Shown here: piece by piece, positions 30,447 through 32,698 of the stretch
Layout of the letters: the number at the start of each line of letters is the position of its first letter
Numbering within the stretch: position 1 is the stretch's first letter
Assembly: GCA_022844565.1 (NCBI GenBank)
Contig: JALHLK010000001.1
Span: 187,073 to 251,072, forward strand
Source: Saprospiraceae bacterium
Lineage (GTDB): Bacteria > Bacteroidota > Bacteroidia > Chitinophagales > Saprospiraceae
Reading direction: 5' to 3'
Length of the DNA stretch: 64,000 bases
Notes under the pieces: generated by a model
Database searches by the model: none
What the model was told of the DNA's origin: nothing
What the model saw: the letters and a program-made list of their open reading frames with translations, nothing else
Program-made: the position numbers and the translations under genes

Positions 30447-30558
30447 AATGTTTGAATGCAAGAATGCTAGAATTCAGCAATGCAGGAATGCGACAATGCA
30501 AGAATGCGAGAATGGGTGAGTGCGTGAATGCAGGAATGCGAGAAGAGAGGAATGGGTG
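30447..30558 (+). repeat. 14-unit 8-bp phased AATGNNNN tandem array
   Basis: The 112 bp from 30447 to 30558 divide exactly into 14 octamers, mostly of the form AATGCNNG (for example AATGCAAG, AATGCTAG, AATGCAGG, AATGCGAC, AATGCGAG, AATGGGTG). The phase is kept although the last positions vary. It lies in the divergent gap between the FtsE-like gene and the ABC-F gene, about 85 nt upstream of the latter. Confidence 0.85.
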
Positions 30559-30641
30559 GAAAGAAATTTCCGTTAATATTAATATTTCTAGCAATAAGTT
30601 GTAATTTTGCCCCCTTTTTCAAATATCATCAATCAAATTAA

Positions 30642-32264
30642 ATGATTAGCGCAAGAAATATATCACTAGCATATGGTAAAAGAGTATTGTTTGACGAGGT
30701 AAATTTAAACTTTGTCAAAGGCAATTGCTATGGGGTAATTGGAGCCAATGGAGCAGGTAAATCAACTTTTATCAAAATACTAAGTGGAGATATCGAAAGT
30801 ACGTCAGGAAAAGTCGAAATCACTCCAGGAGAAAGAATGGCCGTATTGCGTCAAAATCAATTTGAGTTTGATGAATTTTCAGTGTTAGATACGGTAATTA
30901 AGGGGCACAGCACACTTTGGAAAGTGATGAAAGAGCGCGAAGCTATTTATGCCAAAGAAGACTTCACTGAAGAAGATGGAATGAAAGCTGGTGAACTAGA
31001 AGCTGAATTTGGAGAAATGGGTGGCTACGAAGTAGAAAGTGATGCAGGGTCCTTGCTTTCTGATCTTGGGATTGATGAATCACTTCATTTTAACCTGATG
31101 AAAGACGTGCCTTCTAATATGAAAGTACGGATACTCTTAGCACAAGCTCTCTTTGGTAATCCTGATATTCTACTGTTAGACGAGCCTACGAATGGTCTTG
31201 ATATTGATACGATCGCTTGGTTAGAAAATTTTCTAGCTGATTATCAAAACATCGTATTGGTAGTTTCTCACGACAGGCACTTTTTGGATGCTGTCTGCAC
31301 ACATATTGCCAATGTAGACAGACAAAAGATCAAAATCACCACAGGAAACTATACATTTTGGTACGAATCTTCTCAATTAGCTTCTAGACAATTGAGTGAT
31401 AAAAACAAGAAAACCGAAGAGAAGAAAGCTCAGTTGATGGAGTTCATCGCCAGATTTAGTGCAAATGCTTCTAAATCAAAACAAGCTACATCTCGTAAAA
31501 AAGCTTTAGAGAAATTAAATTTAGAAGAGATCGAGCCTTCTACAAGAAAATATCCAGGTATCATCTTCCAACCACTACGTGAACCTGGTGATCAGCTCAT
31601 CAGAGTGGAAAATCTTTCTAAAAAATCTGATGGTAAGACATTATTCTCCAACGTTACCTTTACCATGAACAAAGGCGACAAAATAGCTTTATATTCTAAA
31701 GATCCTTTAGCAGTTTCGATGCTTTTTGAACAAATAAGTGGTAATCAACCAATTGAAACAGGATTGATAGAGTGGGGGAAGACCATCACACCAACTTATT
31801 TACCGGTCGACAACACAGAGTTTTTTCAAAAAGGAGAACCTATCATCGATTGGTTAAGAGATTTTGTTCCTGCTCATGTCACAGACGTTGACGAACCATT
31901 TTTGAGAGGGTTTTTAGGTAAAATGTTATTCAGTGGTGAAGAAATATTTAAGAAAAGTAATGTACTCTCTGGAGGGGAGAAGGTAAGGTGTATGATCAGT
32001 AGAATGATGCTCCAAAATCCAAATTTCTTACTATTAGATCAACCTACCAATCACCTCGATCTCGAAAGTATTCAAGCCTTCAATGAGAGTTGTATCAATT
32101 TCAATGGTAACATCATACTCAGTTCTTACGACCATACTTTTATGGAGACTGTAGCCAATAGGATTATTGAAATCACACCTAATGGCGTTATTGATAAATT
32201 GATGAGCTTTGATGATTTCTTGAAGAGTGAAGAAGTGAAGGAATTGAGGGCGAAGATGTATTAA
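30642..32264 (+). CDS. ABC-F ribosome-associated ATPase, YbiT-like
   Basis: A 540-residue soluble twin-ABC protein that acts on ribosomes rather than in transport. NBD1 has Walker [10 protein letters not shown] and Walker [13 protein letters not shown], but its signature is VPSNM in place of LSGGE. NBD2 has an intact signature LSGGEKVR, but its Walker A position reads [11 protein letters not shown] with no GK[ST], and its Walker B ends [11 protein letters not shown], with Gln in place of the catalytic Glu. The linker (about 235-310) is Lys-rich. Because each site pairs Walker motifs of one NBD with the signature of the other, one site is canonical and the other degenerate. The stop codon lies inside an octamer repeat. 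Confidence 0.9.
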
Positions 32265-32301
32265 TGCCACAATGTTTGAATGCGAGATGACCGAATGGTT
32301 G
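32263..32301 (+). repeat. short 8-bp AATGNNNN array starting in the ABC-F stop codon
   Basis: AATGCCAC (32263-32270), AATGTTTG (32271-32278) and AATGCGAG (32279-32286) follow in phase. A 7-nt ATGACCG and AATGGTTG (32294-32301) come next. The first unit uses the last two bases of the ABC-F stop codon. The 81-bp dispersed repeat begins directly after. The rest of the 428-bp gap to 32692 holds repeats only. Confidence 0.65.
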
Positions 32302-32302
32302 C

Positions 32303-32383
32303 GACATGACCGAATTGTGCGCAGTAATTTTGATTAAGATTTATCAAAATAATGAGGGAACCGAGCAAAACCTTGCGAGGCTA
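32303..32383 (+). repeat. 81-bp dispersed intergenic repeat, copy A
   Basis: Matches 49819-49899 at 76 of 81 positions without gaps. The block runs from GACATGACCGAAT to CCTTGCGAGGCTA. Its last 24 bases and four following ones (32360-32387) recur at 32402-32429 with three differences, so this copy carries a partial tandem duplication. The minus strand of both copies encodes a shared spurious-looking LARFCSVPSL string. No coding role is supported. Confidence 0.85.
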
Positions 32384-32642
32384 CTACAAATGCTCGATAC
32401 AACCGAGCAAAACTTTGCTAGGTTACTACCCATGTCAAACAGATTTAATGCGAAATTCTTTATACTCCAATTTCTTGGCCTGAAATAAAGATAACTGTTT
32501 GAATTCAAAACGCTCACCATTACTTTTTTAGTCAATGACAAAGATCTAAAATAGATTTCCTATTTCACATCTGATTAAGTCGTCAGAGCTAACAAGCTAT
32601 TCGTGATTCTACCGTATTCTTGTTTTACTGTATTTAAAGCTA

Positions 32643-32698
32643 TTCCATTTTGCCATTTTCGCATTCATGCATTCTCGCATTGAACCATTTCATCATTT
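32643..32698 (-). repeat. 7-unit 8-bp AATGNNNN array starting in the PorE-like stop codon
   Basis: Read on the minus strand from 32698: AATGATGA, AATGGTTC, AATGCGAG, AATGCATG, AATGCGAA, AATGGCAA, AATGGAAT. All are in 8-nt phase. The TGA stop of the PorE-like gene (32695-32693) lies inside the first unit, so the array runs with the direction of transcription from the stop codon onward. Confidence 0.8.

Follow-up and report, generated by a model that had tools for sequence, protein, structure and literature searches.

The window analysed here, a 64,000-nt stretch of a Saprospiraceae genome, carries four tandem arrays of the octamer AATGNNNN. Two of them, on opposite strands (32263, plus, and 32697, minus), flank a copy of a dispersed 86-nt repeat, which we name the H-element. 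The features are as follows.

1860..1923, plus strand: AATGNNNN array of the AATGATCT family, 8 units, 7 exact and one with AATA; a tandem-repeat finder also reports periods 8 and 24
1920..2052, no strand assigned: MITE-like insert; its imperfect inverted ends at 1920-1940 and 2032-2052 (21 nt each, TTGAGTCCACTCCGAAAACTC / GACTTTTCGGAGGAGACTCAA) are 86% complementary
30447..30558, plus strand: AATGNNNN array of the GAATGCNN family, 14 units, 11 exact (others AATT, AGTG, AAGA)
32263..32286, plus strand: AATGNNNN array, 3 of 3 units exact, overlapping the TAA stop codon of the ABC-F gene
32306..32385, plus strand: H-element with three hairpins, matching model R1 at 88.8 bits, just 3′ of the 32263 array
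32402..32424, plus strand: second copy of the core of the H-element third hairpin, 2 mismatches
32642..32697, minus strand: AATGNNNN array, 7 of 7 units exact, overlapping the TGA stop codon of the OmpA/PorE-like gene
49822..49901, plus strand: second H-element copy of the window, matching model R1 at 88.6 bits, 3′ of a plus-strand gene

The longest array, 30447..30558, is situated between divergent genes, an FtsE-like ABC ATPase (minus strand) and ABC-F (plus strand), and the arrays at 32263 and 32697 converge. The MITE-like insert sits at the 3′ edge of the 1860 array, and AATGATCT-like sequence restarts past the insert. A right end similar to that of the insert is also found near another AATGATCT array, at locus L103. 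The second H-element copy lies inside a degenerate array of the CAATGAGTTCAATTG type with GGCTGAAGCC-like hairpins (49729-49950).

All four AATG-octamer arrays described in the initial annotation are present, with an exact AATG start in 28 of the 32 octamers but not in all, and the 8-nt phase is unbroken through each of them, as had been stated. The minus-strand array, which had been placed at 32698-32643, has its ends at 32697-32642, one base off. The overlap of two arrays with stop codons holds, the gene ends being 32264 (plus strand, ABC-F) and 32693 (minus strand, PorE-like). Comparison with shuffled sequence also bears out the annotation: the window has 13 three-unit phased matches, and 100 dinucleotide shuffles give a mean of 0.06 and a maximum of 1. 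Runs of four units with up to two mismatches number 23, versus 0.29 in shuffles. A phased family throughout the genome had been proposed as well, and the genome to which the window belongs (G000; 5.59 Mb in 102 contigs) has 61 exact four-unit AATGNNNN matches, 28 arrays by hand count, versus 0 for the reversed pattern. The AATGNNNN arrays are real and far beyond chance. Neither of the two outcomes that the annotation had named as fatal to the family, a genome with no further arrays or shuffled DNA yielding them just as often, was observed.

Across this genome the arrays are dispersed and mainly intergenic, with 2 of 33 inside an open reading frame of at least 100 aa. Their spread is uneven; 13 of the 16 three-unit matches in an 800-kb sample (contigs C1, C2 and C3) come from the window. 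A motif-free scan for 8-periodic intergenic stretches, covering 20 loci of which 19 had been chosen for holding AATG arrays, found 18 stretches, and 17 of these are of the AATG family. The mean modal fractions of the columns are A 0.89, A 0.86, T 0.91 and G 0.73, with 0.54-0.61 in the remaining columns. The contrast between AAT(G) and the rest is weaker in the congener G004 and in G053, where further columns are fixed, and is absent in G024, the stretches from these three genomes having likewise been chosen for holding AATG arrays. The commonest units of the own genome (n = 164) are AATGCGAG (17), AATGCTTG (13), AATGCAAG (12), AATGCATG (11) and AATGATTG (10), and a second unit family (AATGATCT, AATGTTCA) occurs both there and in G004. 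GGG is absent from the fourteen commonest units, and a quadruplex was rejected on this ground. At locus L116, genes of about 131-133 aa stand in tandem (5402-6915) with a similar AATG array between the copies, which suggests that this array was duplicated together with the gene.

The fifth base of the unit bears on a reading in which the arrays catch terminating ribosomes, by means of ATG or ATGA start-stop codons in all frames, or act as extra stops. Units in the G024 sample are always AATGA, and most of those in G053 are ATG-x-TAA or ATG-stop, which would suit such a role. However, 92 of the 164 units of the own genome have C as base 5 and 31 have A, so that the ATGA pairs, initially described as many, are a minority. 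Arrays are also found 5′ of genes, and Ho and Hurst (2019; PMC6764699), in the accessible portion of their paper, report finding no evidence that additional stops are under selection in eubacteria. The start-stop property is not kept between species; on this ground the ribosome-catching role suggested at first was rejected, and we consider it scarcely credible.

To place the arrays relative to genes, gene calls were approximated by open reading frames of at least 100 aa, and distances to start codons are therefore rough. With one array counted per intergenic region, 37 of 51 regions in four genomes have the array closer to its 5′ neighbour than to its 3′ neighbour (pooled p 0.0018); the counts per genome are 19/28 in the own genome and 4/5, 7/8 and 7/10 in the others, none significant singly. 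At distances of up to 30 nt from a stop codon, sense arrays outnumber antisense ones by 25 to 7, and four of the seven antisense arrays come from the L116 tandem cluster. Most of the sense arrays (21/25) begin at +8 nt or earlier. Seven arrays, all in the own genome and four of them from the L116 cluster, lie within 30 nt of a start codon and run away from the gene. In array-free 3′ ends AATG is itself commoner than CATT over the same interval (159 vs 110), and when set against this background share of 0.59, the 25 sense arrays among 32 give P = 0.02. Thus the sense bias at stop codons is true but moderate, and is partly carried by the seeds. The view that arrays start at stop codons and run with transcription is therefore sound as a frequent pattern of the genome, but it does not extend to the longest array of the window, which is one of 15 among 28 regions of the own genome with a start codon, not a stop codon, on the 5′ side of the array.

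The placement is not restricted to the AATG word. When arrays of any unit in the 800-kb sample are given a direction by their excess of G over C, the 5′ neighbour is the nearer one for 50 of 71, and 20 lie within 30 nt behind a stop codon versus 6 on the opposite side. For the strong arrays among them (skew of at least 0.4, score of at least 45) the counts are 19 of 23 and, at stop codons, 10 vs 0.

Sense placement behind stop codons (25 vs 7) could mean that the arrays are docking tracts in 3′ untranslated regions, at which an RNA-binding protein, for example an RRM protein of Bacteroidota, would read AAUG every 8 nt in RNA free of structure and control mRNA decay or translation. Consistent with such tracts, the arrays alone mostly fold no better than shuffles, several at 0 kcal/mol, AAT(G) is more constant than the other columns in the own genome, one RRM_1 protein (71 bits) is encoded there, at C24:4166-4375, and AATG recurs over its reverse in the class. 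However, a start codon stands on the 5′ side in the 15 regions mentioned above, other cores (TTAGG, GGTTAA, GGTCTTT) occupy equivalent places in the same genome, and in G053 and G024 the columns outside AATG are equally fixed. Nor are the arrays kept at orthologues of the ABC-F gene. The main enriched motif given in the accessible part of the RbpB paper is a 41-nt sRNA motif. We therefore judge docking tracts improbable, though the least improbable of the rival readings.

Intact ABC-F orthologues in G001, G003, G004 and G005 (59-78% identity) have no three-unit array and no H-element core, and the same is true of the G002 locus, which is cut by a contig end. Control specific to the ABC-F gene was rejected, since congeneric orthologues are without arrays.

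Array pairs within 500 nt are convergent in three cases and divergent in none, and the window pair 32263 (plus) and 32697 (minus) converges. A sense array followed by a complementary array further on could form a transcription terminator or a hairpin at the mRNA end. Some G024 flanks do fold strongly (z -4.8 to -8.1), and heptamer families of the own genome give long hairpins. Folding of 180-nt array-bearing flanks was compared with that of 40 of 93 array-free 3′ flanks. The median z is -0.03 for 30 array flanks vs -0.74 for the 40 array-free flanks (p 0.22), and z falls below -2 in 5/30 array flanks, four of them from G024, vs 9/40 array-free flanks. Region 32200-32760 has one minus-strand terminator-like site vs 0.4 expected. 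A general terminator or hairpin role was rejected because the fold z-scores of array flanks do not differ from those of array-free 3′ flanks, and we hold it to be very unlikely. Telomere-like end addition was also considered as a cause of convergent arrays and was dropped, there being no enzyme evidence for it.

The H-element was followed through the own genome by the core of its third hairpin, which has 39 matches with up to 3 mismatches, 28 of them exact. Seventeen copies align over 90 columns. In this alignment a three-helix structure pairs 99.7% of the cells, and 50 cells are changed on both sides vs 21 in shuffles; the number of pairs changed on both sides (8) and the pair types are not clearly above shuffles, helix 3 is invariant, and the independent events are few. 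In an alignment of 27 matches that includes G001, G002, G003, G004, G013 and G017, 98.7% of cells are paired, 16 of 20 pairs are changed on both sides, and 98 such cells are found vs 24, while versions slid out of register are 27-44% paired. It should be noted that the latter alignment was fitted to the model and so leans towards the structure, and that 8 of its rows come from one cluster.

Model matches number at least 45 in the own genome, at least 6, 18, 10 and 7 in G001 to G004, at least 24 in G013 and at least 57 in G017; none was found in G005 or the other 22 genomes, among at most 149 candidates scored per genome (30 genomes). The element is present in two other genera of Saprospiraceae. 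A search of Rfam at its curated thresholds gave 0 matches in 144 kb holding H-element copies, and two chance-level matches at 32200-32750. A coding reading was dropped: one subtype has in-frame stops, as judged by eye, and the compensatory changes in the hairpins point to structure.

Read on the minus strand, the third hairpin forms a palindrome with a bulge, and GTAG stands before it in 10 of the 17 aligned copies; the G003 copy is without GTAG. The own genome has four matches to Y1 (IS200-like) transposase genes, at C11:56067-57869 and C81:1143-1382. In the stretches inspected around the Y1 genes on both contigs no H-type GTAG hairpin was found, and membership of the H-element in the REP/RAYT group was rejected for this reason.

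Every distinct H-element start of the own genome that could be measured (18/18; 13 rows without a recognisable start were excluded) has at least two AATG words within 60 nt on its upstream side, and a sense-strand stop codon precedes 15 of 19 H-element regions (p 0.019). These two observations, together with the occurrence of the element in at least 7 of the 30 genomes searched, would fit a single mobile element of which the octamer array is the 5′ arm and the H-element the rest, lone arrays being remnants. However, many arrays of the own genome have no adjoining H-element, and G017, in spite of its many H-element matches, has no five-unit AATG octamer array. The arrays of G024 and G053 have other neighbours, although the model search took in neither of these genomes. 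A single element thus seems quite unlikely. Array and H-element are partners rather than a single entity, since some arrays have no element beside them and a genome rich in the element can lack five-unit arrays.

It is about equally doubtful that array and three-hairpin element together make up an RNA cassette of the 3′ end that was copied to dozens of genes, in which the unstructured AAUG octamers would dock an RRM-type protein, the folded part would protect or process the mRNA end, and every lineage of the class would have a 7- or 8-nt word to itself. Such a cassette would agree with the sense placement, with the preference for AATG over its reverse in the class (33 vs 9 of 296 genomes) and with the covariation seen in the folded part.

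Arrays of this kind vary in period and in word between genomes. The octamer had been presented as the particular form, but among the own genome and 59 relatives, five-unit AATG arrays of period 7 are commoner (23 of 60 genomes) than those of period 8 (12), with period 9 in 2; reversed controls are found in 14, 7 and 1 genomes, respectively. The reversed heptamer has 426 matches in G027, which indicates that other words are used there. In the class as a whole (296 genomes) the AATG octamer pattern is found in 33 genomes and the reversed pattern in 9, and the variable words differ by genome; among the matches listed, those of G088, G165, G202 and G313 consist simply of the tetramer AATG repeated. 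When public sequence was scanned for GAATGCNN arrays, at least 112 stretches turned up; the matches listed include Bacteroidota, Planctomycetota, Verrucomicrobiota and Cupriavidus, and also the cultured species Neolewinella lacunae.

Within 800 kb of the own genome a tandem-repeat finder reports 24 rows of period 7 and 15 of period 8 vs 1 and 2 in a first-order Markov copy. These rows include the families TTAGGNN, GGTTAAT, GGCTATT and GGTTAAG, several of which begin within about 7 nt of a stop codon, and some non-AATG arrays are mirrored by a complementary array, resulting in long hairpins. Two hairpins of degenerate heptamers (GGCTATT / TTTAGCC), at C1:328930-329060 and C1:334000-334130, lie directly 3′ of a stop codon and fold at about -36 kcal/mol each. 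In G053 (loci L145-L151) the octamer arrays usually end in AATGTCAT, followed by a TCCC...GGGA palindrome repeat, another pairing of an array with a palindrome.

The order of units within the arrays carries the mark of block duplication, with blocks of 16 nt: in all four genomes, the variable bases of a unit match those of the next unit but one beyond what order-shuffled arrays show. Observed and shuffled identities two units apart are 0.531/0.476 (reached in 0/500 shuffles), 0.668/0.605 (p 0.006), 0.786/0.747 (p 0.006) and 0.827/0.781 (p 0.010) in the four genomes. Excess identity is also seen at lags 1 and 3 in G053 and at lags 4 and 6 in G004. The slippage-driven element put forward among the initial suggestions gains from this excess, slippage being read here from unit order within one genome per species.

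We conclude that the AATGNNNN arrays are probably degenerate short tandem repeats grown by slippage, of the STRR or long-SSR kind with 7-8-nt units, and seeded at gene ends. Growth and turnover alike would come from slipped-strand duplication, with steps of 8 nt and above all of 16 nt, in intergenic DNA that presumably tolerates such repeats. The AATG words, already commoner than CATT behind stop codons, may seed the growth, and growth into the coding side would be purged, 8 being no multiple of 3. Many arrays of the own genome may have been copied with the H-element, or may have been insertion ground for it, and this association would help explain unit words common to unrelated loci. No dedicated function of the arrays would be needed.

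Several results support growth by slippage. Arrays of period 7, 8 and 9 use different words in each genome, the other 7- to 10-nt families of the own genome begin at stop codons too, the array is absent at the four intact ABC-F orthologue loci of congeners, and a published class of repeats has the same placement. The fixation of columns besides AATG in G053 and G024 is expected if a few founder variants were amplified. Other results tell against it. The sense bias at stop codons exceeds the background word bias (P = 0.02), and the 28 four-unit arrays draw on few words with nearly constant A, A and T columns, which is not expected from pure local slippage off random seeds. AATG octamers outnumber the reversed pattern in the class (33 vs 9 of 296 genomes). 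In addition, three-unit runs common to several loci exceed shuffles in three of the four genomes (6 vs 1.5 in the own genome, 76 vs 58.8 in G053 and 40 vs 25.8 in G024), although block order alone could raise such sharing; three-unit runs are not above shuffles in G004, and two-unit runs are not in excess in any of the four. Singleton, i.e., fresh, mutations number 9 in AATG and 19 in the other four columns (p 0.087), a spread that is not clearly even and yet does not decide for selection specific to AATG. What is left of the sense bias, together with the excess of AATG over the reversed word across the class, leaves some room for a role at the RNA level.

The STRR heptamers of cyanobacteria are short intergenic tandem repeats for which slippage has been proposed as the cause. 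The initial annotation knew of no named family of the present form, but arrays of 5-11-nt repeats are already a published class, the long simple sequence repeats of Mrazek et al. (2007), as described in PMC4679880. The AATGNNNN arrays share with the long SSRs and STRRs, as far as these are characterised in the accessible text, the unit size, the intergenic location and the proposed slippage; they are tandem arrays of a unit within 5-11 nt, beyond chance, dispersed and mainly intergenic. A phased AATG core with four variable bases is not described in the long SSR surveys, as far as PMC4679880 relates them.

The closest published placement, judging from the accessible text, is that of the GGGNATC and GGGGAYT quadruplex heptamers of Xanthomonas and Nostoc (Rehm et al. 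2015; PMC4692102), which lie in sense orientation at stop codons and antisense upstream of genes and are given no known function there. As described in that text, the GGGNATC repeats, like AATGNNNN, are degenerate short tandem units that occur genome-wide in non-coding DNA nearer the 5′ neighbour, and their unit number is variable. However, GGGNATC has 7 nt and forms G-quadruplexes, whereas AATGNNNN has 8 nt and its common units in the own genome have no GGG. Thus the sense position close behind stop codons is shared (25 vs 7 here) and the G-tracts are not.

The TAACTGA heptamer arrays of Beggiatoaceae, Cyanobacteria and some Bacteroidetes (MacGregor 2015; PMC4679880) are, in the portion of the paper available, also intergenic, and some overlap stop codons. 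Their 7-nt unit is invariant and, unlike AATGNNNN, sits in the main species for the most part immediately before start codons; the unit being AATGNNNN, the present arrays are not TAACTGA repeats. BrickBuilt, a minisatellite-MITE of Porphyromonas gingivalis (Klein et al. 2015; PMC4596501), is similar to AATGNNNN with the H-element in being an intergenic tandem array of Bacteroidota tied to a small dispersed element. As presented in the accessible part of that report, its unit has 23 nt and lies inside a MITE with inverted ends, whereas here the unit has 8 nt and the H-element stands beside the array. The GTAG-tagged REP palindromes (Di Nocera et al. 2013; PMC3733652) resemble the H-element in part, with a GTAG before a bulged palindrome in 10/17 copies here and with termini near stop codons. 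According to the available text a REP is one palindrome of 20-40 bp, whereas the H-element has about 86 nt and three hairpins, differs in its tag in G003, and is not found beside the Y1 genes inspected. In the literature covered (titles and openings of abstracts, with subscription journals thinly represented) no description of AATGNNNN octamers or of the H-element was found, and the H-element may be undescribed so far.

The class of short tandem repeats is thus known, and what may be new is the phased AATG octamer form and the adjoining H-element, the latter being the more novel. Compact, dispersed and strongly covarying, the H-element lends itself to direct test. Gene-end tandem arrays with units of 7-8 nt seem to be recurrent in Bacteroidia and under-described. 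Their placement matches that of the quadruplex heptamers of Xanthomonas and cyanobacteria, yet they are without quadruplexes. The sharing of this placement by quadruplex-free arrays suggests that location at gene ends is independent of quadruplex formation, and that a common cause should be sought.
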